This document shows positions 17,405 to 61,512 of a stretch of DNA of 64,000 bases, piece after piece. The DNA lies in the NCBI RefSeq assembly GCF_004803795.1, contig NZ_CP012543.1, positions 682,001 to 746,000 on the forward strand, in the 5' to 3' direction. Each line of letters opens with the position of its first letter. Position 1 is the stretch's first letter. The position numbers and the translations under genes are program-made. A model generated the notes under the pieces. The model saw only the letters and a program-made list of their open reading frames with translations, was not told the origin of the DNA and searched no databases. Source of the stretch: Campylobacter rectus. Lineage in GTDB: Bacteria > Campylobacterota > Campylobacteria > Campylobacterales > Campylobacteraceae.

Positions 17405-17412
17405 AATTTTAC

Positions 17413-21931: not shown

Positions 21932-21932
21932 A

Positions 21933-24340: not shown

Positions 24341-24341
24341 A

Positions 24342-35508: not shown

Positions 35509-35518
35509 GTAAAGAAAA

Positions 35519-39766: not shown

Positions 39767-39877
39767 CAATACTTGCATTATTTATAATAATGTAATTTTA
39801 AAATATGTAAAATATTATATAGTAGATTTATATTTTACCATTATAAATGAGAATAGTCTTTCAATAAGGAAGTATAA

Positions 39878-40560
39878 AAACTTTACAGGGAGCAAAATTT
39901 AAACGGCTGCAATGAGATCGCGGCAAATTTTGCGTACTTCAAGCCCACGCAAAAGGGACAAAAACTAACGAAGCTCGCAAGCGACAAAGATATTTCGTTT
40001 GAAATTTATTTCAGCTCCAGCATGCGCAACTACGCCGGCAGCGTGAGCATCCTACCGCAGGTCGCGATCTACTGCAAGCGCCTAAAAAAGCTGATGCAAG
40101 AGGAGCTGTCCTACTCGACCGATCTTGTTTTCGTATCGCACCTGGGCTATCTCGCGCCGCGCAAACAGTTTCGCGACCGGCACTCGCGGGCGCTAGCTTT
40201 GAACCCAGCGTGCGGGAGATTAGCGCGGCTATCAAGGACTACGCACTGCCTATTTTTGAGCTTTTTGAGGATAAACAAAAAGCGGTGGAGTTTATGATGC
40301 GACGCGGGGCTAAATTTAACAAAAATCTAAGCGCTTTCGATCTGCGCCCGATCTACTTTGTCTATTATTTCGGCGGCAGGGACACGGCGGAGGCGTTTTT
40401 CAACATCTGCCTAAGCAATTGCACGCACAAAGGGCGATTTTATAAGCTTTATGAGGAGCTTGCAAACGGCGCGGAGGCGGATTTTAGCAAAAGTTCGTTT
40501 GTGGGCGATACGGAGGCGAAATTTGCATTTGTAAAAGGACTTAGAATTTTAAATGGCTGA
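39878..40560 (+). pseudogene. Frameshifted, 5'-truncated unrecognised gene at the island boundary
   Basis: A coding frame runs from about 39878 (no start codon, after TAA 39875-39877) through YREQNLNGCNEIAANFAYFKPTQ to about 40180. It then resumes in another frame (ALAGASFEPSVREISAAIKDYALPIF) and stops at 40560. A one-base change near 40175-40190 explains this. GC content and codon use are host-like, unlike the adjoining ParB-Dam pair, so the 5' end may have been lost at the insertion. I do not recognise the family. The following gene overlaps its end by 8 bp. Confidence 0.6.
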
Positions 40561-41038
40561 AATTTTAATTCAAATTTTAATCGTAATTTTTAGCGTCTTG
40601 CTTCTGGGCGGGATTATTTGGGCGCTCATTCGGCGTAATACTCGCAAGCTTAGCCCGCGCCGGCTTGCCGCGATAAATGAGATAAGCGAGACAAGAGCGA
40701 TAAAAAGGCTTTCCGTGAGGCCGTTTTTGTTCTGGCTGGAGCGATTTTTTATCTCGTGCGAGAGCCTTTGGTTTGATCAGGATTTCATCTACGTTTTTAA
40801 CGGACAGAAGCTCGCGGCGAGGTATAAATTTGAGCAAATTTTAGCGTTTGAGGTTACAAAAATACGGATAAATCATGCTAGGATTTGGCGGATCCGCTTT
40901 GCGGACGGCGCGAGCGAGTATAAATTTGCGCCCGCCGCTTCGATTTTTACGCCAAACTTTAAAGAATTTTTGCAAATTTTGCGCGAGAAAAACCGAGGAG
41001 CGATCAAGACGGAGCCGAGATTTTGGGAGACCGTTTAG
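40553..41038 (+). CDS. Hypothetical membrane-anchored protein (161 aa)
   Basis: An N-terminal membrane helix (LIQILIVIFSVLLLGGIIWALI) is followed by a basic stretch and a soluble domain rich in beta-strand signals (ARYKFEQILAFEVTKIRINHARIWRIRFADG). It overlaps the damaged upstream gene by 8 bp and was probably in an operon with it. No family recognised; the strand pattern is PH-domain-like, which is only a guess. Confidence 0.65.
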   Translation: MAEILIQILIVIFSVLLLGGIIWALIRRNTRKLSPRRLAAINEISETRAIKRLSVRPFLFWLERFFISCESLWFDQDFIYVFNGQKLAARYKFEQILAFEVTKIRINHARIWRIRFADGASEYKFAPAASIFTPNFKEFLQILREKNRGAIKTEPRFWETV

Positions 41039-41171
41039 CGCGGCAGAATTTTACAAAGCGGATTTGCAAAAAATAGAAAAGGCGCGCAGCTTTCAGGCGC
41101 GATCATCGCAAAGGGCGGCAAAAGCTACGCGCGAAACCGCAAGAGGCGATAAATAGATAATGGGAGGCAAA

Positions 41172-41633
41172 ATGAAACGCTGGAGCAAGCTTCAAAAACG
41201 GCTTTACGAGCTCGTGGATGAAAGCATTGATTTTAAGCTCCACTGCACGGTTTATAGGATGCAAAGCAGGTGCGGCAGCACGGATTTGCCGCGATATTTT
41301 ATCACGCTTGCGGGCGAGATTATTTTTGATTACCCGAAGGATTTCGTGCTAAAAAGCGGCGGCGTAAAAAGCCTAGCACAGGGCGCTCTAACGAAAATTT
41401 ATCCGTATGGTAACGACATAAGCGACATCGGCGAGCTTATCCGCGAATATATCGACACGCCAAAAGAGGAGCTGTTTGCAAAGCACTTCGATGCCGATAA
41501 ATGGGGGCTCGCAAATATCCTAAAGGCTGCCGACAAACGCATCGGCAAAAGGAGGCTACAAATTTTAGCCAAAAACAAGAAAAATCAAGCGATGCAAAAG
41601 GTGATAGCGTCTAGATTGGAGGCTTTGCAATAA
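41172..41633 (+). CDS. SF0329-family-like protein
   Basis: ATG 41172 has GGGAGG at ideal spacing, so it is preferred over ATG 41160; the product is 153 residues. The N-terminal RWSKLQKRLYELVDES, then CTVYRMQSRCGSTDLPRYFITLAGEIIFDYP, resembles the SF0329 family of small uncharacterised proteins often encoded near immunity-like genes. No membrane segment is seen. Function unknown. Confidence 0.6.
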   Translation: MKRWSKLQKRLYELVDESIDFKLHCTVYRMQSRCGSTDLPRYFITLAGEIIFDYPKDFVLKSGGVKSLAQGALTKIYPYGNDISDIGELIREYIDTPKEELFAKHFDADKWGLANILKAADKRIGKRRLQILAKNKKNQAMQKVIASRLEALQ

Positions 41634-41893: not shown

Positions 41894-42703
41894 ATGATTT
41901 TACCTTCAAACTACGACGAGATCGACTTTGACGCACTTTATAAGGCGCAAAAGGCGAGAAGCTCGTTCGGCAAAAAAATTGCCGCAGACTGGGACAAAAA
42001 GGCGCCCAGCTTTAACGAGGGCGTGATGAAAAGCGCCTATGCGCGAGAATTTATAGACAAGGTTGATTTTACGGGCGTTTCTACGCTGCTTGACTTTGCG
42101 TGCGGTGCGGGCGCGCTAAGCGTGCTGGCGGCTAAAAAAGTAGATCAAATTTACGGCTACGATTTTTCGCCTAAGATGCTAGAGTTTGCCCGCGGGAACG
42201 CTCAAACTTACGGCGCGAAAAACGTGAAATTTGCGCAAAAAGCTTTTGAAGATGACTGGTCGGACGTGCCCGAGTGCGACGTGGTTTTCGCCTCGCGCTG
42301 CCTTGAAGTGGACGATTTAAAAACCGCGCTTGGCAAGCTTCTTTCAAAGACCAAAAAATCGCTTTATATCACGTTTAAGGTGGGCGGCAGCTTCGTAGAC
42401 GAGGAAATTTTAGACGCGATAGGGCGCAAGGTGGAGCAAAAGCCCGACTTCGTCTATCTTTTAAACATCTTGTTTCAAATGGGTTATCTGCCGAGCCTTA
42501 GCTATATCAAAAGCCCATGCAGTGCGGGTCCTGCGACGAGCGCCGAAGAGTTTGTGCAAAAAACTCGCTGGGGGCTTGGCGGCGAGCTAAGCAGCACGGA
42601 GGAAGCGCGGCTGGCGGAGTATTTTAATAGCGGCAAATGTGCGCCTAAGCAGGAGTTTATGCACTGGGCGTTCGTGCGGGTGGATAAAACGGATAAATTT
42701 TAG
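41894..42703 (+). CDS. Class I SAM-dependent methyltransferase
   Basis: The 269-residue protein has motif I LLDFACGAGALSVLA (about 65-79), the post-I acidic residue in IYGYDFS, and CDVVFASRCLEVDDL as motif IV. ATG 41894 has AAAAGGA. Substrate unknown. It is the upstream member of two methyltransferases that flank the tandem receptors at 44007 and 46551 (the other is at 48546; both share an ASR(C/S) motif after motif IV). This suggests they modify a small chelator or intermediate used by that system. A 1.3-kb non-coding gap separates it from the first receptor. Confidence 0.85.
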   Translation: MILPSNYDEIDFDALYKAQKARSSFGKKIAADWDKKAPSFNEGVMKSAYAREFIDKVDFTGVSTLLDFACGAGALSVLAAKKVDQIYGYDFSPKMLEFARGNAQTYGAKNVKFAQKAFEDDWSDVPECDVVFASRCLEVDDLKTALGKLLSKTKKSLYITFKVGGSFVDEEILDAIGRKVEQKPDFVYLLNILFQMGYLPSLSYIKSPCSAGPATSAEEFVQKTRWGLGGELSSTEEARLAEYFNSGKCAPKQEFMHWAFVRVDKTDKF

Positions 42704-43452
42704 ATTGATTTAGTTTTTGCGGTTTTTACAAATTAAATTGAGATAAAATAAAGAGTTAAAATTGAGTAAAAAATAATCATAATTTAGTATCTGTAAAACA
42801 AAACGCACAAGTGCGATTTAGATAAAGCGGGATTTGCGTAGCTTTCAGGAACCCTGCTTAAATTTACTTAAGCGAAGTGTAAATTTATTAAAGCCGTTGC
42901 TAAAATTTATCCAAGCAAAGCTTAAATTTGCATACCAAATCTAAAGCAAAATTTAGCCAAGCAAGCTTTTTAATCGCACTCGGCAGTCTTTTGCTTAATT
43001 TAACAAGTAAAGCAAGCAAAGCCGTCAAAGCAAACGGCTAAATTTGATGCGTCGGTTAAATACCGGCTTTAAATCCAATGGATCTGCGATATGATATAAA
43101 TCAAATCAGCGGACAAGGTTAAATCTCAAGCCGGCTTTAAATTTATGGGCAAGCCTGAAAATCGGATCAAATTTAATGAATAAGCCTTCTAATTTAGCCG
43201 TTTGATTTATCTAAATCGGCAAACTGGCAAGAGATCAACCAGGGTTATCCATCCAAATTCGAGCGAGCAAGCCAAATTTAGCCTGCTTTGTTCAGCCGAG
43301 TAAATTGCCCAGAACGGCTCTTGCTCGGCAAAATTTAGTAAGCAAATCGTTCAAATTTAGCGGACGCCGGCTTATTCAAATTTGGCTTTGCAAGCTGCCG
43401 TAAAACATTCGATAGTCAAATTTAACGAACGCTCTGCTTTAAATTTAACAAA

Positions 43453-43576
43453 CAAATAAGCAAAAATAGACAAAGCCCGCCAGCTAAAAGAGCGAGCCGA
43501 CTTACTTATCAAATCACGCCCCGACGATGATTTGAGTAGCTTTGATGATAGCAGTTACTTCATCCATCTGCTTTTA
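43453..43576 (-). pseudogene. Duplicated fragment of the mop 3' end plus terminator
   Basis: This stretch is nearly identical to 53908-54030, which is the mop terminator and the last ~20 codons of mop (KAGDEVTAIIKATQIIVGA on the minus strand). Differences are a few substitutions and one inserted base (ATCCATCTGC versus ATCGCCTGC), which shifts the frame. No remainder of mop is found beyond 43576. It is a relic of duplication or recombination. Confidence 0.85.
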
Positions 43577-43957
43577 GCATCAAAATGATAATAAAATTGA
43601 CATATATTTTAATATCGTTATCGAGTGGATCTCAAGCGTTTTTTATAGGCTCCAAAAAATAACTATAAGTTTTTGCGCTATTTGTATAATGCTGTTCGGA
43701 TGCTGCACAATATCGAAATTTAAAAGCTGTTTTCATTAACTATGACTTATAAAAATGCTAATCCATAAATTTGAGCTTGTATATCCGAGCTCAAATTTGG
43801 TCCCTCTATTGCCTCGTCACCACTTTTGTTTGTTCAAATTTTAGTAAAACTTAAATTTAAATCGAATGAGCCATAAAAGTAAATATAAATTCATCAAATT
43901 CTAAAAATATATTATGGATAAAATTGAATATTAAGCAAATAAGATATAACATCGGCC

Positions 43958-43987
43958 TATTAAAATATAAAAATAAATATTTTAATA
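43958..43987 (+). promoter_or_regulatory. Dyad TATTAAAATAT-N8-ATATTTTAATA upstream of the first tandem receptor
   Basis: A perfect 11-bp inverted repeat with an 8-nt spacer (43958-43968, 43977-43987 with AAAAATA between) ends 19 bases before ATG 44007, just ahead of AAAGGAG. The same core TTAAAATAT-N8-ATATTTTAA lies in the same place before the second receptor, suggesting a common repressor site. Confidence 0.6.
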
Positions 43988-44006
43988 TACAACAAAAGGA
44001 GCCTAA

Positions 44007-46199
44007 ATGAAATTTAAAATTTTAGTTTCGGCTTGTGCCGTTTTTGCAATATTTGCCGCTCAAGCAAACGCCAAGGAGTCCGTCAATACCGCCCCCGTTA
44101 AGTTAGAAGCCGTCGAGGTAAATAGCGTCGGTGATAATATCAGTAACAGCGGTATCGACGAGGGCTTTTTGAGCAAAAACGTGCAAAACGGCATTTTGGC
44201 GGGCAAGCGCGCTCTGGACGTGCCGTATCAGATAAATACTATCACCAAAGAGACGATGGGCAATCAAGGCGTAAACGGCTTTGAGGACGTCATCAAATAC
44301 TTCCCGTCCGCTTCGATCACGATGTTCGGCGGCTCGGTTGCCGGTCGTCCGCAGACGCGCGGCTTTGGCGCAAACGTTGTTGGCAACGTCTTTTGGGACG
44401 GCTTTTACGCCGTAGCCACTACTGCGACGCCGATGGCGATGTTTGAGAGCCTTCAGGTACAAAACGGTCTCGCAGGCTCCCTCTACGGCGCACAAAATCC
44501 CGTCGGCATCTTTAGCTACACTAAAAAGCGTCCCGTGGATAATGAGCATACGATCTGGGGTGATTACGTAAGCCGCAAAAATTTTGGGCTCGGACTTGAT
44601 AGCTCGATGAAATTTGAAAAATTCGGCTACCGCACCGTGTTTTACGGCAGCGATGGCGCGCGGCACAGATACGGAAATTTGCAGCGCCGTTTGGCTTCGG
44701 GGGTATTTGAGTTTTACCCGACGGATGCGCTTACGATAGAGACGGCCGCGAGCTACTACGAGCACCGTTCGCACGGCTTTGCAGGGCTATTTTACATCCC
44801 CGTAACGGGCGGCGCGATGAAGTATAAAATTCCAAAAGCCAGGAGGGACGACGTAGCCGGCATGGGGCAGCCTTTCGGCGGAATGAATCTAAAAAAAACG
44901 ATGCTAAGCGCCAAGCTTAGATATGCGCCGACCGATCGCTGGTATTTTGAGGGCGGCTTTGCGTGGCAGCGCGTCGATCGCGATACGCATCGCATCATAA
45001 ACGACATCTACAGCAATAACGGCGACTTTAACGTATATCACGTTGGCGGCATCCCAAATTACCGTTATGAACTACCAAGCGGCTATTTAAAGGCCGTGAC
45101 GGACGTTGAGACATTCGGACTAAAGCACGATCTTAGCCTTCAGGCAAATGGCTATAGCTGGAATACGTTTAGATTTGCCAACTCGCCCGTTAGCGGCTAC
45201 GCGAACTCCGGCGGCAATAGTATGAGCGATCCGCATGTTTTCGCTCGTCCAAACACTCGCAACGGCTCGAATCTTTTCAAAGTGACGCAAACGCAGATGA
45301 AAAATTTAACGGCTTTGGACGACATTACTATAAATGAAAATTTTAGCATCCTACTAAGCCTCTCAAATGCGTGGATAAAAACCAGATCCCGTGCCGGCAA
45401 CAACCGCGCCAATCCGCTTGAAACGAGATACGACGAATCGGGGCTTAGCTACGGAGCAAGCTTTATCTACCGACCTATCGAGGATGTGAGTTTATATTTC
45501 ACCTATGCGGATAGCTTGCAAAAAGGCGATCAGGGCGTAAACGCCGACGGTACGATCGTAGTTTTAAAGCCGTATCGCTCCAAACAATATGAAATCGGCG
45601 CAAAGGCTCGCATAAGCGAACTTGATCTAAGTGCGGCGCTATTTAGGATACAGCGTCCGATCGCATACGTTAGCAACGGCACCTTTGCCGAGCAAGGCGA
45701 GCAGATTAATCAAGGCTTGGAGCTAATGGCTGGCGGCAAGCTAGTACAAAATTTGAGCGTGTTCGGCGGCGTGACTTTTATCGATTCTAAGCTTAAAAAT
45801 CCGAAGCTTGCTGGTGCGGATAATAAAAACGTAACGGGCGTCTCAAAGATCAAGTCGAATTTACTCTTTGATTATCTCGTGCCGGGCACCGATAAGCTTG
45901 CGTTTAGCGCAAATTTCCACTACAACAGCGGATTTTACACCGATGATCTAAATACGCAAAAGACGTCCGCATTTTTTACGACCGACCTTGGTGCGCGCTA
46001 TACTAGCCGCACGATGCTTGGTAAACAGACCACTTTGCGATTTAACGTAAATAACGTGTTTAATAAAAAATATTGGGCGGGAATTTCGCCTGCGAGTATG
46101 GACGGCGCGGCTACCGGCAGCACGAGAGTGGCGGGCACCACGGGGTTAAGCCTTGGCGAGAGTAGGACGTTTATATTATCTGCCGAAGTCAAATTTTAG
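44007..46199 (+). CDS. TonB-dependent receptor, tandem paralogue 1
   Basis: The 730-residue protein has a clear signal peptide (KILVSACAVFAIFAAQANA), a plug with PYQINTITKETMGNQGV, GRPQTRGFGANVVGNVFWDG, QNGLAGSLYGAQNPVGIF, and a barrel ending in SAEVKF. It is of the siderophore-receptor (FhuA/FpvA-like) type. The plug is highly similar to that of the next receptor, so they arose by tandem duplication, but barrel loops differ, implying different or broadened ligand use. The neighbourhood (methyltransferases, FecCD importer, mop) hints at a metal or oxyanion chelate, perhaps molybdenum or tungsten; iron remains the default alternative. Confidence 0.92.
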   Translation: MKFKILVSACAVFAIFAAQANAKESVNTAPVKLEAVEVNSVGDNISNSGIDEGFLSKNVQNGILAGKRALDVPYQINTITKETMGNQGVNGFEDVIKYFPSASITMFGGSVAGRPQTRGFGANVVGNVFWDGFYAVATTATPMAMFESLQVQNGLAGSLYGAQNPVGIFSYTKKRPVDNEHTIWGDYVSRKNFGLGLDSSMKFEKFGYRTVFYGSDGARHRYGNLQRRLASGVFEFYPTDALTIETAASYYEHRSHGFAGLFYIPVTGGAMKYKIPKARRDDVAGMGQPFGGMNLKKTMLSAKLRYAPTDRWYFEGGFAWQRVDRDTHRIINDIYSNNGDFNVYHVGGIPNYRYELPSGYLKAVTDVETFGLKHDLSLQANGYSWNTFRFANSPVSGYANSGGNSMSDPHVFARPNTRNGSNLFKVTQTQMKNLTALDDITINENFSILLSLSNAWIKTRSRAGNNRANPLETRYDESGLSYGASFIYRPIEDVSLYFTYADSLQKGDQGVNADGTIVVLKPYRSKQYEIGAKARISELDLSAALFRIQRPIAYVSNGTFAEQGEQINQGLELMAGGKLVQNLSVFGGVTFIDSKLKNPKLAGADNKNVTGVSKIKSNLLFDYLVPGTDKLAFSANFHYNSGFYTDDLNTQKTSAFFTTDLGARYTSRTMLGKQTTLRFNVNNVFNKKYWAGISPASMDGAATGSTRVAGTTGLSLGESRTFILSAEVKF

Positions 46200-46550
46200 A
46201 ATTTAAAGCGGCTTGTTTTGTGAGCGCTTTAACGGAGCTAGTAAAAATCTAGTTAGGTGAACTATGTGTCCATTCTAAACTAAATTTTTACTTCTCTTGT
46301 GTTTTGCATTCGTAGTACTTAAAAAGCAATTCAAGTTCGATTAAAGCATAAATTTAGCATCTTTGCCCGCTTTTTTCACTCAAATTTTATGAAAATCGAT
46401 TTTAACCGAACGCCCCAATAAAGTAAATGTAAATTTTATAAAATTATAAAAATATATTGTTTCTAAATTACATATTAAGGAAATAATGTGTAATATCCTT
46501 ACATTAAAATATAAAAATAGATATTTTAACATATCATAAAAGGAGTCCAA
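46200..46550. other. Intergenic region between tandem receptors
   Basis: A possible terminator stem TTAAAGCG (46203-46210) / CGCTTTAA (46225-46232) follows the first receptor. The rest mirrors the leader of the first receptor (AAAAATATATT, then a dyad before AAAGGAG), so the promoter region was duplicated with the gene. Confidence 0.5.
46504..46529 (+). promoter_or_regulatory. Dyad TTAAAATAT-N8-ATATTTTAA upstream of the second tandem receptor
   Basis: A perfect 9-bp inverted repeat (46504-46512, 46521-46529) with an 8-nt spacer, 21 bases before ATG 46551, equivalent in sequence and place to the dyad before 44007. Confidence 0.6.
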
Positions 46551-48530
46551 ATGAAATTTAAAATTTCAGTCGCTGTATGTGCTGTTTTAGCGCTATTTGC
46601 AGCGCAGGCAAACGCAGCTGAAACGGTCAGGCTTCAAGCGGTCGAGGTAAATAGTATCGGTGACAACATCAGCGAAAGCGGTATTGATGAGGGAATCTTA
46701 AACAAAAAAGTCGCTAGTGGACCATTAGCAGATAAAAAAGTTTTTGATATGCCTTATCAGGTAAATACGATCTCTAAAGAAGTGCTCGACAATCAAGGCG
46801 TGCAGGCCTTCGACGAAGCGGTCAAGTATTTTCCGTCCGCGCAGCTTCAGTATAGAGGCGGCGGCGAGATGGGGCGCCCGCAAACTCGCGGTTTTCAAGG
46901 AAGCGTCGTAGGTAACGTGCTTTGGGATGGATTTTACGCAGTTTCTACGACAGCCATACCGATGACGATGTTTGAAAGCCTTCAGGTGCAAAACGGCCTT
47001 GCCGGTTCGCTTTACGGCGGACAAAGTCCCGCAGGTATCTTTAGCTACTCTCGCAAACGCCCTATGGCCGATTATAACGCTGTTTGGGGCGATTATATCT
47101 CAAGGGGAAATTTGGGTATCGGCCTAGATACTTCGGATAAATTTGAAAAAGTCGGCTACCGTGGAGTATTTTACTACACTGCAGGCGAAAGAGAGCCTAA
47201 ACACAGTCGCACCTCACGCCGTCTGGCTTCAGTGGCGCTTGATTTTTATCCGACCGATGATCTTACTTTCGAGACAAACTTCAGCTACTATAAGCACACT
47301 ATGGGCGGCTACTATAACAGCGCGCGCATAACTAGCAGAAACGGTATCGCCATGGGAAATATCCCGGACGTCTCGAGCGTGATCGCATCCATCGGTAAGG
47401 AAAGGTTTATGAGAACGATAACGGCTAGCGGTAAATTTAAATACGCGCCGACCGATGCTTGGTATTTCGAAGGTGGCTATCAGTGGCAAAAGGCCATCAG
47501 AAGCAGAAGTGGCGATAGCGTATTTACCGTACCTAGCGCATTTTTAAAGGCTCAAGCGGACTTTAACACCGGTAGCGTTAAGCATAACTTCGCCACCGCC
47601 TTAAACGGCTACAAATGGTCAAGCGGCAAAGGCAGATCGCTGCTAACCGATATGAAAAACATCTCTATCGTCGATGACATCGCCTTTGGCGAGAGCTGGA
47701 ACGTCATACTCTCGGCCTCAAATACTTGGTTTAAAAAAAATGGCTATAAAAAAGACGGTGTCAGCTGGGCCGGAAGCGTCGTATATAAGATAACGCCGGA
47801 TTTAAACGTCTATTTCACTTATGCCGACAGTTTGCAAGACGGCACTAGCAAATTTTACGACCCGTCCGTTTATCGGCCTACTCACCCGCTATATGGTCAA
47901 ACCATCAGTTTTAAGCCCTATAGAAGCGAGCAGTATGAGCTCGGCGTAAAGGCTCGAGTTGCGGAGTTTGACCTTAGTGCGGCGGTATTTCAGATCACTA
48001 GACCGACTTATTATGAGGTGGATGGGATATTTGGCGAACAAGGAGAGCAGAGAAATAGAGGTCTAGAGCTAACCAGCGGCGGCAAACTCACTTCAAATTT
48101 GAGCGCTTACGGCGGCGTGACATTCCTCGATCCTAAGATGAACAAGTCTGCAAAAAGCTCGGTTGAGGGTAAAACGATGATCGGAGAGCCAAAAGTGCAG
48201 GCTAACGTACTCTTTGACTTTGTCGTGCCAAATACCGAAAAACTCGCCTTTACGACAAATTTTCACTACACGGGCAAACGCTATGTGGATGAATTGAATA
48301 CAAAAAGCGTGGACGGCTACTTCACGATGGATCTGGGCGCTAGATACACGACTAAAGCGTGGCTAGGCAAGGAAACAACGATAAGATTTAATGTAAATAA
48401 CGTCTTTGATAAAAAATACTGGGTAGGTATGTTCCCTGGTTCGCTTGACGGAGAGGTCAAAAACTCAGGCACAAATTTGTTTAGGAGCTATGATAGAACG
48501 TTTATGCTATCGGCTCAAGTCAAATTTTAA
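46551..48530 (+). CDS. TonB-dependent receptor, tandem paralogue 2
   Basis: The 659-residue protein has a signal peptide (VCAVLALFAAQANA), a plug very similar to paralogue 1 (VEVNSIGDNISESGIDEG, GRPQTRGFQGSVVGNVLWDG, LAGSLYGGQSPAGIF) and a barrel ending SAQVKF. It is about 70 residues shorter, mostly in mid-barrel loops. ATG 46551 has AAAGGAG. A methyltransferase starts 15 bases after its stop, so the two are probably co-transcribed. Confidence 0.92.
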   Translation: MKFKISVAVCAVLALFAAQANAAETVRLQAVEVNSIGDNISESGIDEGILNKKVASGPLADKKVFDMPYQVNTISKEVLDNQGVQAFDEAVKYFPSAQLQYRGGGEMGRPQTRGFQGSVVGNVLWDGFYAVSTTAIPMTMFESLQVQNGLAGSLYGGQSPAGIFSYSRKRPMADYNAVWGDYISRGNLGIGLDTSDKFEKVGYRGVFYYTAGEREPKHSRTSRRLASVALDFYPTDDLTFETNFSYYKHTMGGYYNSARITSRNGIAMGNIPDVSSVIASIGKERFMRTITASGKFKYAPTDAWYFEGGYQWQKAIRSRSGDSVFTVPSAFLKAQADFNTGSVKHNFATALNGYKWSSGKGRSLLTDMKNISIVDDIAFGESWNVILSASNTWFKKNGYKKDGVSWAGSVVYKITPDLNVYFTYADSLQDGTSKFYDPSVYRPTHPLYGQTISFKPYRSEQYELGVKARVAEFDLSAAVFQITRPTYYEVDGIFGEQGEQRNRGLELTSGGKLTSNLSAYGGVTFLDPKMNKSAKSSVEGKTMIGEPKVQANVLFDFVVPNTEKLAFTTNFHYTGKRYVDELNTKSVDGYFTMDLGARYTTKAWLGKETTIRFNVNNVFDKKYWVGMFPGSLDGEVKNSGTNLFRSYDRTFMLSAQVKF

Positions 48531-48545
48531 AATTTTGGAGAGTCA

Positions 48546-49472
48546 ATGCAGGGGCTAGTGAATTGGAAAGTGCTTCGCGATCTTAAATTTGCGTCGCTAA
48601 TGAGGCGCTTGCCGCAAGAAAAGGGCGGCGATAAAAAAGCTAGGGGCGGCGGCGTAAACTGGGATGAAGTCGCCAATATGTACAACGAGATGACGCGTAT
48701 GGAGGCGCGCTCGACGGCGCAAGCGATATCGCTACTGCCGATTGGACCGGAAGATAGCGTGCTGGATGTGGGCTGCGGACCGGGCAGGCTGATCGTGCCT
48801 CTCGCAAAGATCGCTCGCAGCGTAACCGGCGTTGACGCATTCGCGCAGATGCTAAGCTTCGCCCGCCAAAACGCGCAAAACGCAGGGCTAAAAAATATAA
48901 AATTTTTGCAAAAAAGCTGGCTTGACGATGACGCGCTAGAGGCGATCGGCAAGCACGACGTCATCATCGCATCACGCTCGGTAGGGCTCGGCAATATCGA
49001 AAAGCTAAACAAAACCGCTAAAAAATACGTAGTTTTAATGTGTTTTTTTGAAAGTAGCCTGCGCGAAATTTGGCAGGGATTTTTGCAAGGCGTCGCGGAT
49101 GAGCAGCCGCAGGAGGCCGGCGAGAGCGAGCGGCGAGCTTGCGCGTCCGAGACTTGCGAGCGAAAGAGACGCGAAGAGGCGCGCGAAAACGATAGAATGT
49201 TCGGCTACAACGTGACCTTTAATATGCTCTACGACATGGGCGCAAACCCCAATGTGCATATCATGCAGGACATCTACGAAAAGGAGTTCGCAAGCCGCGA
49301 GGAGGCGTACGAGCATTTTAGATTTGCAGGTGAAATTCCTACTTCGAAGGAGAAAATTTACCGTGCAAACGTGGATAAATATTTGACGCAAACGGCGAGC
49401 GGGTGGAGGTTTGAAAGAAGGGCGAGGAGCTACGTAATGTGGTGGGACGTACGAGAAATTTCGCAAATTTAG
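48546..49472 (+). CDS. Class I SAM-dependent methyltransferase (receptor operon)
   Basis: The 308-residue protein has motif I VLDVGCGPGRL (72-82), a post-I Asp in VTGVDAFAQM and DVIIASRSVGLGN. It follows the second receptor by 15 bases with a GGAG site. Residues about 183-220 are a charged, Glu/Arg-rich insertion containing two Cys, unlike the methyltransferase at 41894, with which it otherwise shares layout. Position suggests it modifies a ligand released by, or made for, the receptor system. Substrate unknown. Confidence 0.85.
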   Translation: MQGLVNWKVLRDLKFASLMRRLPQEKGGDKKARGGGVNWDEVANMYNEMTRMEARSTAQAISLLPIGPEDSVLDVGCGPGRLIVPLAKIARSVTGVDAFAQMLSFARQNAQNAGLKNIKFLQKSWLDDDALEAIGKHDVIIASRSVGLGNIEKLNKTAKKYVVLMCFFESSLREIWQGFLQGVADEQPQEAGESERRACASETCERKRREEARENDRMFGYNVTFNMLYDMGANPNVHIMQDIYEKEFASREEAYEHFRFAGEIPTSKEKIYRANVDKYLTQTASGWRFERRARSYVMWWDVREISQI

Positions 49473-49492
49473 GCGGCTTGTCTTTTTCCTTT

Positions 49493-50030
49493 ATACTTCG
49501 CTTTGCTTCGTTGCATTCGCAACTGCAAGCAGAAGGAAATTTCGCCGAGGCTCGGTTACATACTATATGTATGCGCCCTCGCTCGGCTCATTTCCGCCTC
49601 GCTCCCCCCCCCTCGTAGCGAAGTTTAGCTTCACTGCGTTCGCTACTGCAAGCAGAGCGTTACGAGCGCTTGTGCGAAGTAAAAAGAAAAATACTTCGCC
49701 TTATCGTTTTACATTCAAATTTAGGGGTCAAATTTGCAAAATTCGGTTTCAAATTTTACGCACCGAGACCCGCACGTTGAAAATGCAAATTTAACCTGCA
49801 CGCAGTGCAGCAACCGCTCACGTGCAATGGGGTTGGAGAGGGCATAGGAGAGGGTCTGCCTTTAGCAGCTCTCAAAGAGAGTGCGTCTTAACAGTAGCAA
49901 ACGAAGTGCAGCTAAGCACAAGGCGAGTGCATAGCACGACGCAAAGAAAAGGGCGCTCTACTTAGTTTCGCTACGTTCGCTACTGTCGCTTTGCTCTGCT
50001 AAAGCAGCTTGCAAGCAAGAAGAGGCCGAA
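49493..50030 (+). repeat. Dispersed mosaic repeat, copy 3
   Basis: Blocks in order include TAGCTTCACTGCGTTCGCTACT (49625-49646), CTTCGCCTTATCGTTTTACA, ACGCACCGAGACCCGCACGT, CACGTGCAATGGGGTTGG, AGTGCATAGCACGACGCAAAG, and GGGCGCTCTACTTAGTTTCGCTACGTTCGC. The second half matches copy 4 block for block. Confidence 0.65.
49604..49612. repeat. Poly-C tract (C9) inside repeat copy 3
   Basis: Nine consecutive C residues between GCT and TCGTAG. Long enough for slippage, but no convincing gene reads through it. Confidence 0.5.
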
Positions 50031-50287
50031 CTGCAGAGCAGAACATAATTTAAGCCCCCAACATAAAAACAAATAGCGTAAAATTTTACGGTCAAATTTT
50101 AGCATTCTCGCCGTGTGGGTCCGGATGCTAAAATTTAACCGGTAAAATTTGAGGCATTTTAAACGCTTGTGTAAATTTGACGAAATCGTCATTTTAAACA
50201 TCCCCGTAAATCGGTAAAATTTACAGTGGTGAATGCCAAAATAAATTTAACAAAATCGGATTTAAAACCAAACAAAAGAGGAAAGCA

Positions 50288-51298
50288 TTGAGCAACTCAA
50301 AAATCATAATTCTACTAGCCGTAGCGGTCGCGCTCGCGGCATTTGCGGCGCTTGGCGTAGGGCGTTTCGAGCTTAGCTATGTGCAGATTTTGGCGCATTT
50401 TAAGGCGGCAATCTCTGGCGAGCAACCAAGCGAGCCGCAAAGCTACGCTGTACTGATGCTTATCCGCCTGCCGCGCGTGCTCTTTGCAGTGCTCGTTGGC
50501 GCCGCGCTTGCGAGCTCGGGCGCGGTGTATCAGGGGCTCTTTCGCAACCCTCTGGTCTCGCCTGATATCCTTGGCGTCAGTAGCGGCTCATCGGTCGGAG
50601 CCAGCATCGCTATCATCTTAAATTTTAATTATATCGGCGTGCAGTTAAGCGCGTTTGGCTTTGGGCTTGCGGCGGTGTTCGCGGTCGTTTTTATCAGCGG
50701 CGTGATAGCAAAGGGGCGCATAAATTTGCTCGTGATGGTGCTAACGGGCATCGTCATCTCATCGCTTTTCGGCGCCGTGAGCTCGCTGATGAAATTTCTA
50801 GCCGATAGCGAGGATAAGCTGCCCGAGATCACCTTTTGGCTGATGGGCAGCCTCGCTCGCACTGGCGGGTATCAAAATTTAGCCGTCCTGCTTGCAGTCG
50901 TCGCTATCTCGCTGGTGCCGCTATTTATGCTGCGCTACAAGCTAAACGCGCTTAGCTTTGGCGAAGAGGAAGCCCGCGCGATGGGGCTAAATGTCAAAAT
51001 TTATAATATCATCATCATCGCTGCATCTACGCTGCTGACCGCCACGTGCGTGTCCTTTTGCGGTATCGTAGGCTGGATAGGGCTTGTCATCCCGCACATC
51101 GTGCGCTTTGCCGTGGGGGCGAATTTTACTACGCTCTTGCCCGCCTCGATGCTTAGCGGCGCGCTGTTTTTGCTCATCGTCGATACCGCCGCGCGCAGCA
51201 TAATGGCGAGCGAAATACCGCTGGGCGTCATCACCTCTCTCATCGGCGCGCCGGTGTTCGTGTATCTGCTCTATAAGAGCAAAAGGGGCTTTTCGTGA
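50288..51298 (+). CDS. BtuC/FecCD-type ABC permease (MolB-like position)
   Basis: The 336-residue protein starts at TTG 50288 with AGAGGAAA and has about ten membrane helices. Family runs are LIRLPRVLFAVLVGAALASSG, NPLVSPDILGVSSGSSVGAS and GIVGWIGLVIPHIVRF. Its stop overlaps the ATPase GTG by 4 bp. The fold family imports iron chelates, heme, cobalamin and, in the case of Haemophilus MolBC, molybdate/tungstate. Location between the tandem receptors and mop makes molybdate or tungstate a serious candidate, though sequence alone cannot decide. Confidence 0.92.
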   Translation: MSNSKIIILLAVAVALAAFAALGVGRFELSYVQILAHFKAAISGEQPSEPQSYAVLMLIRLPRVLFAVLVGAALASSGAVYQGLFRNPLVSPDILGVSSGSSVGASIAIILNFNYIGVQLSAFGFGLAAVFAVVFISGVIAKGRINLLVMVLTGIVISSLFGAVSSLMKFLADSEDKLPEITFWLMGSLARTGGYQNLAVLLAVVAISLVPLFMLRYKLNALSFGEEEARAMGLNVKIYNIIIIAASTLLTATCVSFCGIVGWIGLVIPHIVRFAVGANFTTLLPASMLSGALFLLIVDTAARSIMASEIPLGVITSLIGAPVFVYLLYKSKRGFS

Positions 51299-52071
51299 GA
51301 CTTGAGATCAAGAATTTAAGCTGCGGTTACAATGATCGCACCGTGATAGAAAATTTTAACGCTAGCCTCGCGGACGGCGACGTATTTTGCCTACTCGGTA
51401 GCAACGGCGTGGGCAAAACGACGACGTTTAAGACGATTTTGGGTTTTTTAAAGCCTCTTGGCGGCGAAATTTTAGCGGACGGCGAAAACGTGCTAGCTAT
51501 GAGCGACAAACAGCGCGCGCAACTCATCAGCTATGTGCCGCAAGCGCACGTGCCGCCCTTTGCCTTTAGCGTGTTTGACGTCGTGATGATGAGTGCAAAC
51601 GCGCGGCTTGGAATGTTTGAGCGACCGAGCAAGGAGGACGAGGGCGTAGCTTTGGGCGCGCTTGAAACGTTAAAAATGGGTGATTTTAAGGATAAAATTT
51701 ACACCGATCTAAGCGGCGGCGAGCGGCAAATGGTGCTGATCGCGCGAGCTTTGGCGCAGCGCTCGAAGGTCATCTTGCTTGACGAGCCCACGGCCAATCT
51801 AGACTTTGGTAATCAAATGCGCGTCCTGCGCCAGATAAAGGAGCTTGCCGCGCACGGATACATCGTCGTGATGACCTCGCATCAGCCCGAGCAGGTCTTT
51901 TATGTAGGTGCGAAAGTTGCGATGCTGGGGCGCGATAAGAGCTACATCTACGGCGCGGCAAAAGATGTGGTTACGAGCGAAAATCTGCGCGAGATCTACG
52001 GGACGGATATAAGGGTGGTGAGAAACGAGATAGAGGGGGAGGAGCATTATTCCTGCGTCGCTATATTGTGA
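51295..52071 (+). CDS. ABC importer ATPase (MolC/FecE type)
   Basis: The 258-residue ATPase starts at GTG 51295, overlapping the permease. Walker A is GSNGVGKTT, the signature LSGGERQMVLIARAL, Walker B LLDEPTANLDF, and the switch His lies in MTSHQPEQ. It is clearly homologous to the ATPase at 36520 (both have NQ(M/I) after FG, and a VPQ(A/T)HxPxxxxSVFDV run), so the two importers are sister systems. A dispersed repeat copy separates it from its probable binding protein gene at 52777. Confidence 0.92.
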   Translation: MRLEIKNLSCGYNDRTVIENFNASLADGDVFCLLGSNGVGKTTTFKTILGFLKPLGGEILADGENVLAMSDKQRAQLISYVPQAHVPPFAFSVFDVVMMSANARLGMFERPSKEDEGVALGALETLKMGDFKDKIYTDLSGGERQMVLIARALAQRSKVILLDEPTANLDFGNQMRVLRQIKELAAHGYIVVMTSHQPEQVFYVGAKVAMLGRDKSYIYGAAKDVVTSENLREIYGTDIRVVRNEIEGEEHYSCVAIL

Positions 52072-52776
52072 CTTTATAGATTGAGACGGCTTGTCTTTTT
52101 AAAAAATGGCTCGTCTCGCGAGCGCTTTTAAATGATTTCGTAAATTTCGCCCTGCGATAGGCTATATGCCTTATCTTGGGACGAAATTTACTTCAAAACA
52201 TTTAAAATCATCTCGCGATACTTCGCCTTATCGTTTTGCGTTCAAATTTGAAGGCGAATTTGCAAATTTTATACGTTGAGATACACATCTTGAAAACGTT
52301 AAATTTGACGAGATTAAATTTGCAAATTTAGGCGTGATAGGGCCAATAAATTTAAACTTGCGCGCAGCAACCTCTAACGTGCAGTGGGGTAGGTGGGGGT
52401 TTCTGCTTCGCAAGCTCGCAGCTGCAAGCAGACGGGGGCGGGTCTGCTTCTGGCAGTTGCGAGTGCGTAGCACGACGCAAAGGAAGGCGACGCTCTACTT
52501 TAGCTTCACTACGTTCGCTACCGTCGCCCTACGGGTTTGAGACCGCTTCGCTCGTAGCTGTAAACAGAGCGTAAGTAGGTCTGCTCTGCTTCGCATTCTG
52601 CTCGCAGCTTTTCAAGAAGCAGTTACGAGCCGCAGGCGAAGTAAAGCTCCTTTTACCCCCAAGAAAGGAATTTCAAAAGATGGAATTTGCCGAGTAGTCG
52701 TTTTGTGCGAGTAAAATTTTAAAATTTCATAAAGCGCTAAAATTTACGATAAATTTAGAAAAACAAAGGAGCGAAA
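52072..52776. other. Gene-free stretch with dispersed repeat inside the third importer cluster
   Basis: About 705 bp between the ATPase and binding protein genes, mostly occupied by repeat copy 4 (52205-52640). The final 100 bases are AT-rich and carry the start signals of the binding protein. No gene is seen. Confidence 0.5.
52205..52640 (+). repeat. Dispersed mosaic repeat, copy 4
   Basis: Blocks in order: CTTCGCCTTATCGTTTTGCG, a run like GAGATACACATCTTGAAAACG, ACGTGCAGTGGGGTAGG, GAGTGCGTAGCACGACGCAAAG, GGCGACGCTCTACTTTAGC, TAGCTTCACTACGTTCGCTACC (52501-52522), CGTCGCCCTACGGG and GAGACCGCTTCGCTCG. It is the reverse-orientation match to copy 1 and a near full match to copy 3. Confidence 0.65.
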
Positions 52777-53784
52777 ATGTTTAAAAAAATTCTATTTTTG
52801 GCCGCGATGGCGGTTATTTTGCAGGCTAGGGTCGTGCTTGATAGCGACGGCAAGGAGGTTCAGGTTCCGGATGTCATAGAGCGAGCTACGCCGATGATCG
52901 GGGCGTTCGTGCAGGTTAGCGCGATGCTGGGTAACGAAGATCGTATCATCTCAGGCGCGACGAGGCTGCCGCCGTTGATGGAGAAAATTTTCCCAAAAAT
53001 CCGCACGAGCGGCAATCAAAGCGGTATACTGGGTAGCAGCGTCGAGACTCTCATCGCCTCAAAAACGCAGGTGGTGTTCGGTCCCGTGGGGATGATGTTT
53101 GACGAAAACGCCAAAAAGCAGCTAGAGGCCGCAAGCATCGCGGTCGTGAAGGTTGATAAGATGTCAAACGTGAAGGAGATTCAGGATAGCTTTAGCAAGA
53201 TCGCGCAGATCTGGGGCGGGCAGAGCGTGCAGCGCGCAAAAGAATTTAACGCGTATTTCGACGAAAACGTGAAATTCGCAAGCGAACGCACGGCAAAGAT
53301 CGAGCCTAAAAAGCGCGTTTTGGTGCTAAATTTCAACTCCGGAAATTTTAGTACCATCAGCAGCTCGGACATCGGCGCGGAGTATATAAAAATCGCCGGC
53401 GGGATAAATTTGAGCTCAGAGATCAGCAAAGAGGATTTTAAAATTTCAAAGGCGCTAAACGAAGAGCAAGTTATCATTTTTAACCCAGATGTGATAATCA
53501 CAAACTCGCGTTCCAGCAAGGAGCAAATCGCTAAAAATCCGTCATTTACGCAGTTAAAAGCGGTACGGCAGGGGCAAATTTTCGTCGTGCCTAGCGGCGT
53601 GTATCTATGGAGTGTGCGCAGCGCCGAAGGCGCGCTATATCCGTTGTGGCTGGCAAAAGTCCTATATCCTGAAAATTTTACCGAGTTAAATTTAGAAGAC
53701 GAGGTAAAGAAATTTTATCTCAAATTTTACCGCTACGAACTAAGCGATGAAGAGCTGAGAGGGATACTAAATCCCGGGCTTTAA
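52777..53784 (+). CDS. Periplasmic binding protein of the third importer (MolA/CeuE-like)
   Basis: The 335-residue protein has a signal peptide (ILFLAAMAVILQA), then the class III fold: ERATPMIGAFVQVSAMLG, VETLIASKTQVVFGP and, near the C-terminus, VPSGVYLWSVRSAEGALYPLWLAKVLYP followed by KFYRYELSDEE. This C-terminal pattern is shared by binding proteins that serve metal-chelate and MolBC-type importers. ATG 52777 has AAAGGAG. The permease and ATPase lie upstream beyond a repeat element; mop lies just downstream on the other strand. Ligand unproven. Confidence 0.87.
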   Translation: MFKKILFLAAMAVILQARVVLDSDGKEVQVPDVIERATPMIGAFVQVSAMLGNEDRIISGATRLPPLMEKIFPKIRTSGNQSGILGSSVETLIASKTQVVFGPVGMMFDENAKKQLEAASIAVVKVDKMSNVKEIQDSFSKIAQIWGGQSVQRAKEFNAYFDENVKFASERTAKIEPKKRVLVLNFNSGNFSTISSSDIGAEYIKIAGGINLSSEISKEDFKISKALNEEQVIIFNPDVIITNSRSSKEQIAKNPSFTQLKAVRQGQIFVVPSGVYLWSVRSAEGALYPLWLAKVLYPENFTELNLEDEVKKFYLKFYRYELSDEELRGILNPGL

Positions 53785-53927
53785 CGCCTTTACGAGTGAT
53801 AGCTTGCGTTTGCAGATGCCAAACGTGCTTGTGACGCGGATAGCGGATTAAATTACGGCTTTAACTTTTTGCTTTAGTTAAAAGAGTCGTTTCGCCAAGT
53901 ATGCCTTCAAATAAGCAAAAATAGACA

Positions 53928-53958
53928 AAGCCCGCCAGCTAAAAGAGCAAGCAGGCTT
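53928..53958 (-). terminator. mop terminator
   Basis: On the minus strand AAGCCTGC (53958-53951) pairs with GCGGGCTT (53935-53928) with one G-U pair and is followed by TGTCTATTTTTG. It lies 10 bases after the mop stop and is copied, with mop's end, at 43453-43576. Confidence 0.65.
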
Positions 53959-53968
53959 ACTTATCAAA

Positions 53969-54388
53969 TCACGCCCCGACGATGATTTGAGTAGCTTTGA
54001 TGATAGCCGTTACTTCATCGCCTGCTTTTAAAGATAGGTTTTTAGCGGATTCGTTGGTAACGATAGCGCTTAGCTTATCTCCGCCGGCTATCTCTATATC
54101 TACTTCAGCGTTTACCGCACCTTCTACTACTCTTACCACCTTACCTTTTAGTTGGTTGGTAGCGCTTAACTTTAGTTTGTCTTCGCCCTTGGCTACTATG
54201 ATAGAAGAAGCTTTAAATAGATAAACCACCTTCTTACCTACCGCTAACTCCAAAGCCTTTTGGCTATCTACGGTTACGGTCGCTTTTACCGTCTCTCCGC
54301 CTTGTAGCTTTGCTACGATGAGCGAATTTACCGCTCCTTCTCTTACCTCCGTGATTTGAGCTTGTAGTTGATTTCTTGCGCTAAACAT
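53969..54388 (-). CDS. mop: Mop-type molybdate/molybdopterin-binding protein with two TOBE domains
   Basis: The 139-residue soluble protein is two tandem Mop/TOBE units: residues 1-70 (SARNQLQAQITEVREGAVNSLIV...KASSIIVAKG) and 71-139 (SATNQLKGKVVRVVEGAVNAEVDI...KATQIIVGA). Such di-Mop proteins assemble into rings or trimers that store or buffer molybdate/tungstate in the cytoplasm. ATG 54388 follows AAGGAG. It is divergent from fdhD, sharing a 465-bp regulatory region, and its 3' end is duplicated at 43453-43576. Confidence 0.93.
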   Translation of the reverse strand: MFSARNQLQAQITEVREGAVNSLIVAKLQGGETVKATVTVDSQKALELAVGKKVVYLFKASSIIVAKGEDKLKLSATNQLKGKVVRVVEGAVNAEVDIEIAGGDKLSAIVTNESAKNLSLKAGDEVTAIIKATQIIVGA

Positions 54389-54853
54389 TGCGTCTCCTTG
54401 TAAATAAATTTGATTTCGTATTAAAATCTTGACGAAATAGTAACGACTTAAACTTCGGCGAAACTTAAAATGAATATATGCAAAAATTTAACTTTATCAC
54501 TGAAAACGCATACATTAACGATTATCGGAATTTTAGGTATTTTGATAAATGAAGTAGAAAAATTTAATTTCGTAATTTTGAATTTGGGGTAGATGGGTTT
54601 TGGGTTAAATTTGAAAAGGGGTGGGAGGGAATGTAAAATTTGATGAGGTATGCCTGCGTAATATTATAGCGACAGCCCAAAAAACTATCTTTAAGATATA
54701 TGCTAAATTTGCATATATAAATCATCATAAAATACCGATTAAAACGTGGTAAAAAGCATTTAAGTTTTTGCTTGATTTAAGCAAGAATTCACTACAATCA
54801 AATCTTAAATTTAGATTTTCAAGCTATCATTTTGCAAAAATTTAAGGAAAATC
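54389..54853. other. Divergent regulatory region between mop and fdhD
   Basis: No gene. It contains the perfect dyad at 54696-54718 (listed) and a lone half-site ATATGC at 54476-54481 nearer mop. AT-rich stretches suggest promoters in both directions; none is clear enough to place. Confidence 0.45.
54696..54718. promoter_or_regulatory. Dyad ATATATGC-N7-GCATATAT upstream of fdhD
   Basis: A perfect 8-bp inverted repeat with spacer TAAATTT lies 136 bases before fdhD. The core ATATGC-N7-GCATAT recurs exactly upstream of the fdh operon (61513-61531), with one mismatch at 61463-61481 and two at 59559-59577 between tupA and tupB. It is probably the operator of a molybdenum/tungsten or formate regulator. 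Confidence 0.65.
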
Positions 54854-55636
54854 ATGCAACCGATTTTTACGACGCAAATCATCAAATTTAAAGGCGCGCA
54901 AAAAAGCGCCGTTGATGATATTTTGGTGCGCGAGATCAAGCTTGAGATCTACATAAACGGCAAGCGTTTCGGCGCGCTGATGGCGACTCCGACCGATCAG
55001 GAGGCGCTGGCTGCGGGCTATCTCATCAGTGAAAATTTGATCGCAAGCCCTGCGGATATCGAGAGCATAGAGCTCTCAGACGACGCTTTAAGCGTGCTGG
55101 TAAAGGCTAAAATCAACGAAAAACGCCTCGAGCAGTTTGACGAGGAAAAGGTGATAATCAGCGGCTGCGGACGCAGCTCTACGGCAAATATCGACCCTGA
55201 GGCTATGGCGGCGCGCGCTATAAAGGCCGAGGTCAAATTTAACAAAGACGAAATTTTGCGCCAGATGGGGCAGTTTTACACGCAGTGCGAGCTTTATGAG
55301 ATGACGGGCTGCGTGCACACGGCCAAGCTTTTCGTGAGCGGCGAGCAGTTTTATATCGGCGAGGATATCGCTCAGCACAACACGATAGATAAAGCCGTCG
55401 GCAAAGCTATACTAGCCGGCGCGCAGCTGCAAAATTCGTTTTTGATGGTGAGCGGCAGGCTAAGCTCTGAAATGGTCGCAAAAGCCGTCATGCACGGCAT
55501 CCCCGTGCTCGTCTCGCGCACGGCTCCGACTAGCCTCGGCGTCGTGATAGCGCGTAAATTTAACCTCACGCTGTGCGGCTTCGCGCGCGGCGAAAACATA
55601 AACGTATATAGCGGCGCGGAGAGAATCTATGAGTGA
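54854..55636 (+). CDS. fdhD: FdhD, sulfurtransferase for formate dehydrogenase
   Basis: The 260-residue protein matches FdhD: EVKLEI-like N-terminus (REIKLEIYINGKRF), TDQEALAAGYLISE, SGCGRSS (about 102-108) with the conserved Cys, MTGCVHTAKLF, and GRLSSEMVAKAVMHGIPVLVSRTAPTSL. FdhD moves sulfur from a cysteine desulfurase to the molybdenum/tungsten cofactor before insertion into formate dehydrogenase. ATG 54854 has AAGGAAA. The ModE-like gene starts 8 bases before its stop, so they are one operon. Confidence 0.95.
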   Translation: MQPIFTTQIIKFKGAQKSAVDDILVREIKLEIYINGKRFGALMATPTDQEALAAGYLISENLIASPADIESIELSDDALSVLVKAKINEKRLEQFDEEKVIISGCGRSSTANIDPEAMAARAIKAEVKFNKDEILRQMGQFYTQCELYEMTGCVHTAKLFVSGEQFYIGEDIAQHNTIDKAVGKAILAGAQLQNSFLMVSGRLSSEMVAKAVMHGIPVLVSRTAPTSLGVVIARKFNLTLCGFARGENINVYSGAERIYE

Positions 55637-56396
55637 GCAAATCCAGGGACTCATCGCAAAACTGTTAAATCCAAAGGGTAGGCTAGACTGCGGAGCGGCG
55701 TTTAAGATCGCCTCAAAGCTAGGCGTTCCGGTCGGCGAGGTTAGCGACGAAGCCGAAAAAATGGGCGTAAAGATCGACAACTGCGAGCTAGGGCAGTTTG
55801 GCGGGCTGGAAAACGGACGTGGCAAATACACCGTGATGACGCAGCTAAAACAGATGACCGACGAAAAGGGCAGAATACTGTGTAAAGACGCTAGAGACGC
55901 AGCTGCAGGCGTGGGACTAAAGACCATCCGCGGGGCGCTAAAAGACTATAAAATCGACGTAAAATACTGCCAGCTGGGGTGTTTTAAGGAGAAGAAAGGA
56001 AAAAAGATGAGAGTAAAAACCAAAACCTGGATAGAAAACGACGAGGGCGAGCTGATCTTCGGTAAGGGCAAAACCGAAGTCCTAGACGTCATCGCCGAGG
56101 TCGGCTCGATCTCAAAGGCCGCCGAAATCCTAGGTATGAACTATAAAAAATGCTGGAATCATCTGCAAATTTTGCAAAAAAATCTAAAAGAGGAGCTCTT
56201 TACCACCAAACAAGGCGGCGGCGAGAACGCCGGCACGACGCTAAACGAGCGCGCGCATGAGCTCATAAACGCCTATAGGCAGCTACAAAACGACATCGAG
56301 GACTTTGCCGATAAGCGCTTTAAGGAGCTGTTTTTGAAAAAAGACGGCGAGAAAAAGGACTCGGCCAAAGACGACGCAAACGATAAAAAGAAATAA
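55629..56396 (+). CDS. ModE-like regulator with a duplicated Cys-containing N-terminal domain
   Basis: The C-terminal part (about 125-235) is the ModE winged helix: VLDVIAEVGSISKAAEILGMNYKKCWNHLQIL, as in molybdate-responsive repressors. The usual C-terminal molybdate-binding TOBE domains are absent. Instead residues 17-58 and 81-119 are two repeats, GRLDC...NCELGQFG and GRILC...YCQLGCF, each with paired Cys (21/52, 85/114, plus 118). This suggests a metal or redox sensing domain. The gene overlaps fdhD by 8 bp. Regulation of the Mo/W/formate genes is inferred; the dyad ATATGC-N7-GCATAT is a candidate target. Confidence 0.85.
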   Translation: MSEQIQGLIAKLLNPKGRLDCGAAFKIASKLGVPVGEVSDEAEKMGVKIDNCELGQFGGLENGRGKYTVMTQLKQMTDEKGRILCKDARDAAAGVGLKTIRGALKDYKIDVKYCQLGCFKEKKGKKMRVKTKTWIENDEGELIFGKGKTEVLDVIAEVGSISKAAEILGMNYKKCWNHLQILQKNLKEELFTTKQGGGENAGTTLNERAHELINAYRQLQNDIEDFADKRFKELFLKKDGEKKDSAKDDANDKKK

Positions 56397-61353: not shown

Positions 61354-61462
61354 GCCTCAAATTTTGCAAATTTCGCTCCTGATTTTAAATTTAGGCTCGT
61401 TTAACGCCCGTTAAAATAGCCGAGTTAAAAGTAAATATCAAAATGTGGCGCAAATGCGAGAT

Positions 61463-61481: not shown

Positions 61482-61512
61482 TTCTTTTACCCCCTAAAAT
61501 TCGCTACAAGTA

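Follow-up and report, generated by a model that had tools for sequence, protein, structure and literature searches.

Two TonB-linked, MolBCA-like importer systems with methyltransferases in Campylobacter rectus and their probable molybdenum or tungsten cargo

Introduction

Which compound is imported by siderophore-type receptors and a FecCD-type ATP-binding cassette (ABC) transporter that are encoded beside molybdenum and tungsten genes? The question is raised by a 64,000-nt stretch of Campylobacter rectus DNA (assembly GCF_004803795.1; NZ_CP012543.1, 682,001–746,000, forward strand), here called the window, whose positions serve as coordinates throughout; the genome measures 2.57 Mb and its kin are Campylobacter. 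To our knowledge, molybdate and tungstate are thought to require no TonB receptor. The free oxyanions should pass porins, so that the presence of a TonB receptor points to a complex of greater size.

An earlier note on this DNA described one cluster at 41894–54388, two receptors flanked by two S-adenosylmethionine (SAM) methyltransferases, as an importer of a molybdenum or tungsten compound. All the genes that it named are present, each where it had been placed, but they belong to two neighbouring systems, A and B. In each, a class I SAM methyltransferase is combined with a TonB-dependent receptor and a type II ABC importer resembling MolBCA, and the cargo of both is probably a molybdenum or tungsten compound.

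System A and its kinship with MolBCA

System A consists of the following genes (TBDR, TonB-dependent receptor; MT, methyltransferase; BP, binding protein).

44007–46199, + strand: TBDR1, TonB-dependent receptor with siderophore-type barrel and plug (PF00593, PF07715); top PDB match FemA.
46551–48530, + strand: TBDR2, a further TonB-dependent receptor, paralogous to TBDR1 and in tandem with it (PF00593, PF07715).
48546–49472, + strand: MT2, class I SAM-dependent methyltransferase (Methyltransf_31/25).
50288–51298, + strand: FecCD-type permease, MolB-like (PF01032; MolB HI1471, 2nq2_A; permease tree).
51295–52071, + strand: ABC ATPase, MolC-like (MolC HI1470, 2nq2_C).
52777–53784, + strand: periplasmic binding protein, Peripla_BP_2, MolA-like (PF01497; MolA match; AlphaFold model).

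The two receptor genes are direct repeats with 72–79% identity. Repeat-bearing spacers of 0.7–0.8 kb separate MT2 from the permease (49473–50287) and the ATPase from the binding protein (52072–52776); both have repeat sequence in common with each other and with further intergenic regions of the genome. Relatives lack such spacers, and the corresponding genes there abut or overlap.

Among characterised proteins in the PDB, those closest to the permease, the ATPase and the binding protein are the components of MolBCA (HI1470–1472) of Haemophilus influenzae. The permease has MolB as its top match at 246 bits, followed by a haem permease at 182; for the ATPase, MolC is the sole PDB match at 1e-40; for the binding protein, MolA (HI_1472) is the best characterised PDB match (phmmer, E=6e-15), with 58.3 bits against 27.8 bits for HP1561. 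Identity between the permease and MolB is only moderate. In the permease tree, a clade of 38 rows (97/92) unites MolB, both window systems and the riboswitch-bearing systems described below, and also Campylobacter paralogues encoded beside moeA (L062, in the C. rectus genome itself; L074) or TorA-like enzymes (L065, L069; L numbers denote compared loci); haem and iron control permeases fall outside it. Within the clade, the system A permease groups with L206 and the riboswitch-bearing L207 (100/99). At L062 (7233–11361), moeA stands in one row with a DUF4213/DUF364 heavy-metal-chelation protein, a paralogue of the binding protein and a MolB-clade FecCD permease.

Other known importers resemble system A in part. 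The layout of receptor, FecCD permease, ATPase and Peripla_BP_2 protein is that of Fhu, Yiu and Hmu, but the haem and iron permeases of this type that were tested lie outside the clade, and orthologues of the window systems are linked by riboswitches to the molybdenum cofactor (Moco) or tungsten. TupABC is encoded next door, and in other families ModABC genes are intermingled with those of system B; both, however, are importers of type I that include no receptor and whose binding proteins have the ModA/TupA fold. MolBCA itself, which has the BtuCD fold and imports molybdate and tungstate, is described as a low-affinity molybdate transporter, and this description mentions neither a TonB receptor nor a methyltransferase with it (PMC4031551).

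Riboswitch-linked operons in other phyla

When an alignment of MT2 was scanned against 84,980 species genomes, relatives outside the phylum were found in Shewanella mangrovi, Sporomusa, Peptococcaceae, Syntrophomonas and Anaerovorax, where the methyltransferase is kept with permease, ATPase and binding protein; a receptor is missing in the Bacillota other than Sporomusa. Syntrophomonadaceae and other Bacillota have an operon MT-FecCD-ATPase-BP in the same gene order as system A. Across Campylobacter, Sulfurospirillum, Shewanella and Bacillota, MT2 orthologues adjoin the permease or the binding protein gene, and MT2 is joined to the importer in all lineages sampled except one (L212).

Ahead of genes of these operons stands the Moco/tungsten riboswitch RF01055: eight copies at six Bacillota loci (L207, with three copies; L208, L209, L210, L215 and L216), scoring 55–77 bits against an Rfam cut-off of 36. 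The copies of L209 and L210 are placed between the methyltransferase and the binding protein gene, and in L207 (9687–19658) three FecCD systems on a single Syntrophomonas contig are each found beside a riboswitch of their own, one of which spans 9687–9806; L206 has a sub-threshold match (20.5 bits) at the corresponding place. By our own estimate, chance would seldom, though conceivably, put a riboswitch within a few hundred bases of an operon unrelated to it in a single case, and six loci make chance unreasonable. The P3 stem is absent from all eight copies, which assigns them to the tungsten type: P3-lacking RNAs of this class were tied to organisms and genes of the tungsten cofactor (Regulski et al. 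2008, PMC2408646). Tungsten is somewhat favoured over molybdenum as the cargo of system A.

Molybdoenzymes are encoded beside some of the copies. Xanthine-oxidase-type molybdenum hydroxylase genes follow the Shewanella copies (L200, L211), and upstream of the L216 system lies an operon for a molybdopterin oxidoreductase that also encodes NrfD and a chaperone of the TorD type. Molybdenum or tungsten import, as the earlier note had proposed, draws its support from outside the window: from these riboswitches, from the PDB matches to MolB, MolC and MolA, and from the permease tree.

System B and its methyltransferase

The second system starts outside the range covered by the earlier note, with its importer at 32213–37266 (c-type genes).

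32213–34210, + strand: TBDRc, TonB-dependent receptor, plug Cir/BtuB-like; orthologues beside mop, modD and MT1.
34459–35508, + strand: BPc, binding protein; 4pag (E=3e-60), then 4ovk and MolA.
35519–36520, + strand: FecCDc, permease; MolB clade, c-type branch (100/100).
36517–37266, + strand: ATPc, ATPase; operon order kept across the family.
41894–42703, + strand: MT1, SAM-dependent methyltransferase; orthologues after ATPc or ModC, or in TBDRc-MT1-ModD operons.

Of the 397 genomes compared in the phylum, 89 have an MT1 orthologue, located downstream of TBDRc-BPc-FecCDc-ATPc or within modABC/modD loci. By these neighbourhoods, MT1 belongs with the c-type importer and not with TBDR1 and TBDR2; the two receptors flanked by two methyltransferases of the earlier note thereby dissolve as a unit. 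In the window, ATPc and MT1 are parted by 37437–41633 (ParB-like, Dam-like and other genes). Relative to L163, whose stretch from ATPc to MT1 lacks the ParB/Dam piece, 37437–39766 with the ParB-like and Dam-like genes is inserted; it is a low-GC patch (29% at 38–40 kb).

MT1-type systems are interleaved with modABC, modD, modE and mop in several families. Same-strand runs comprise mop-TBDRc-MT1 (L116), TBDRc-MT1-ModD-ModB-ModC (L191) and BPc-FecCDc-ATPc-MT1-Oxidored_molyb-ModA-ModB-ModD (L183). Molybdenum markers within about 10 kb were counted at 12 of 30 loci with MT1 and importer and at 3 of 19 control FecCD loci; Fisher's p=0.043 was obtained on 13/30 versus 3/19, and is weak, the loci not being independent. 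The runs, and the loci in which MT1 follows ModC (see Discussion), are more telling than these counts.

A luciferase-like monooxygenase gene recurs beside TBDRc/MT1 (L119, L183, L185, L191, L192), as does, in some of these loci, a 242-aa protein without Pfam match; both are possible ligand-processing enzymes.

Insertion of system A beside mop

The adjacency of system A to mop and tup had been used in the earlier note as a functional argument. The features that bear on it are as follows.

43453–43564, unstranded: left copy of a 112-bp direct repeat, what remains of the 3' end of mop together with sequence downstream of it; left edge of the block.
53908–54019, unstranded: right copy of the same repeat, at the 3' end of mop; 96% identity to the left copy.
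53969–54388, − strand: mop, molbindin with two TOBE domains (PF03459 twice); insertion target.
54854–55636: fdhD.
55629–56396: ModE-like gene.
58721–59539, − strand: tupA (NCBIfam TupA equivalog, 500 bits; cut-off 400).
59613 (start): tupB.
60400 (start): tupC.

The block TBDR1-TBDR2-MT2-FecCD-ATPase-BP, at about 43.5–53.9 kb, is an insertion that parts MT1 from mop. Its flanking repeats gave 94% identity over 124 bp in a second comparison. In L159 only 86 bp lie between MT1 (end corresponding to window 42715) and mop (end corresponding to 53973), and the order TBDRc...MT1-mop-fdhD-modE-tup-fdh is shared with the window throughout, the block being the one interruption; L165 has the same arrangement. 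Because the block is an insertion and its congener orthologues are nearly without molybdenum neighbours, the adjacency to mop and tup is no functional evidence for system A and was rejected as support.

Competing cargoes and points against

Several observations weigh against a molybdenum or tungsten cargo. About 20 congener loci keep the order TBDR-MT2-FecCD-ATPase-BP, with MT2 and FecCD overlapping and the genes often pseudogenes, and only one of the 20 has a molybdenum marker (moaA, about 10 kb off); in four Sulfurospirillum-like genomes with TBDR-MT2-BP, molybdenum genes are nearby in none. The congener copies have as neighbours genes that resemble nifS/nifU or uvrD, or those for fumarate reductase/oxoglutarate oxidoreductase, and no metal-uptake genes, so that of the setting named in the earlier note as adverse (iron or nickel genes, no molybdenum genes) only the second half is found. 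Frameshifts or stops break system A in many congeners (L042, L045–L049, L051, L055–L060), which suggests that its use is dispensable or host-dependent. A phylogenetic profile of MoaC across the phylum was uninformative, MoaC being present in 382 of 397 genomes.

The riboswitch evidence also has its limits. RF01055 was found neither at the Sporomusa and Shewanella copies nor in the C. rectus genome (G000) or the 64-kb window, and the Bacillota genomes concerned mostly hold 4–16 RF01055 riboswitches. The permease tree, for its part, left out the iron permease Yiu and the nickel permeases of Helicobacter pylori.

The binding protein is equivocal in structure. Its AlphaFold model (pLDDT 87) fits MolA best (Z 28.9, rmsd 2.7, 294 aligned), with iron-binding YiuA (Z 26.6) and nickel-binding H. 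pylori CeuE (Z 26.0) close behind. Ligand choice by fold comparison was accordingly rejected, all three lying at Z 26–29; the comparison with MolA and CeuE suggested in the earlier note ranks MolA first and leaves the ligand undecided.

A ferric siderophore, for instance a ferric catecholate, would fit the proximity of YiuA, which was solved with iron, and the scarcity of molybdenum genes in congeners: the receptors would take a xenosiderophore, and the methyltransferase would help to release iron. TBDR1 and TBDR2 score highest with siderophore receptors (matches to FemA, FoxA and BauA) and stay just below the siderophore-receptor cut-off of TIGR01783 (209 and 192 versus 223.5 bits). We nevertheless consider this cargo unlikely, given that orthologous operons carry Moco/tungsten riboswitches and that the permease falls within the MolB clade, apart from the haem and iron controls. 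Upstream of TBDR1 and TBDR2, no match to the Fur consensus used beats shuffled sequences, which may also speak against a ferric cargo.

Import of a nickel, cobalt or corrinoid compound is less probable still, and very doubtful. The low score of the binding protein against HP1561, far under that against MolA, speaks against it, and near the copies searched Moco/tungsten riboswitches are present and no cobalamin or NiCo riboswitch was found. In its favour stand the structural proximity of nickel-bound CeuE, the use of the FecCD/BtuC fold for B12, and the top family match of MT2, a weak one, to a corrinoid-protein-associated methyltransferase.

Candidate operators

Three palindromes were located in the intergenic regions.

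43960–43985, unstranded: perfect palindrome TTAAAATAT-N8-ATATTTTAA upstream of TBDR1, candidate operator.
46504–46529, unstranded: perfect palindrome TTAAAATAT-N8-ATATTTTAA upstream of TBDR2.
54696–54718, unstranded: palindrome ATATATGC-N7-GCATATAT ahead of fdhD, a candidate operator for Mo/W control; perfect arms kept in L159 and L165, hence in three species.

The first motif occurs exactly at these two sites only in the genome, and with one mismatch upstream of TBDR2-type genes in the relatives L054 and L199. The second, a candidate ModE site, has a weaker copy with two mismatches at 61461–61483, before narJ-like/fdhA genes; none was found upstream of TBDR1, TBDR2 or TBDRc, a further point against molybdenum or tungsten as cargo. 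The motifs differ, and a common regulator of TBDR1/2 and fdhD was rejected on this ground. An Rfam match at 43967 (lactis-plasmid RNA, 27.8 versus 70 bits) was taken as chance. Regulation in Campylobacter neither supports nor excludes control by molybdenum or tungsten.

Other loci in the window

At 15374–26071 lie genes for TBDRa, an ExbB-like protein, TBDRb, FecCDb, ATPb, BPb, a TonB-like protein, a radical SAM protein akin to ChuW/HutW (257 bits; cut-off 400) and a flavodoxin resembling BilS; the locus has the look of an operon for taking up and degrading haem anaerobically. A formate dehydrogenase frame is broken by one stop at about 63129, between 62565–63128 and 63150 onwards, as would be expected for a selenocysteine codon.

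Discussion

For molybdenum or tungsten import by the two systems, the most probable reading, a mechanism may be proposed. TonB energy would drive the compound through the receptor, a MolA-like protein would hand it to the MolBC-like transporter, and a cytoplasmic methyltransferase would alter an organic ligand, freeing the oxyanion for cofactor synthesis. In C. rectus itself, we infer the molybdenum or tungsten cargo from the relatives. A chelate is suggested because a TonB receptor is superfluous for free oxyanions, and release of the metal by modification of the ligand would be the role of the methyltransferase. Its retention in Bacillota that have no outer-membrane receptor points to a step in the cytoplasm. 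No genes for chelator synthesis were found near the two systems, which favours a ligand made elsewhere.

HmuW/ChuW, a radical SAM methyltransferase of anaerobic haem uptake operons, offers a precedent: it is encoded together with the uptake system and is reported to dismantle the imported complex (PMC10404700). Its family and cargo differ: MT1 and MT2 are class I and not radical SAM enzymes, and the cargo of HmuW/ChuW systems is haem.

The importers may also carry molybdenum or tungsten with no chelator involved, the methyltransferase being unrelated to the cargo (regulatory or cofactor-modifying, for example). This alternative, which overlaps with the preferred reading, is possible and rather less probable than it. 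MT1 occurs in modABC operons without TonB receptor or MolBCA-like importer (L117, L120, L125, L126, L176, L190), in L117, L120, L126 and L176 downstream of ModC, and no importer lies close to some 24 of the MT1 loci, so that the role of MT1 may be wider than import; the Bacillota keep MT2 where there is no receptor to serve. The passage of free oxyanions through porins, which leaves the TonB receptor to a larger complex, and the tie of MT2 to the importer in every sampled lineage but that of L212 argue the other way.

A search of the literature, limited to open-access papers and therefore lacking most subscription papers, found no description of TonB-linked molybdenum or tungsten uptake, nor of a MolBCA-type importer to which TonB receptors and methyltransferases have been added; the earlier note had likewise known of no system so composed. 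A wider picture is offered tentatively, at somewhat less than even confidence: a widespread, modular, TonB-dependent uptake of tungsten or molybdenum chelates, in which a dedicated methyltransferase frees the metal, spread among Campylobacterota, Shewanella and Bacillota by horizontal transfer and placed under a tungsten-cofactor riboswitch in Bacillota. If the systems form one molybdenum or tungsten route, dedicated tungsten or molybdenum metallophores should exist, the low-affinity MolBCA would gain a plausible natural cargo, and many FecCD transporters annotated for iron would be misannotated; the riboswitch-linked operons of Bacillota make such a route directly testable.

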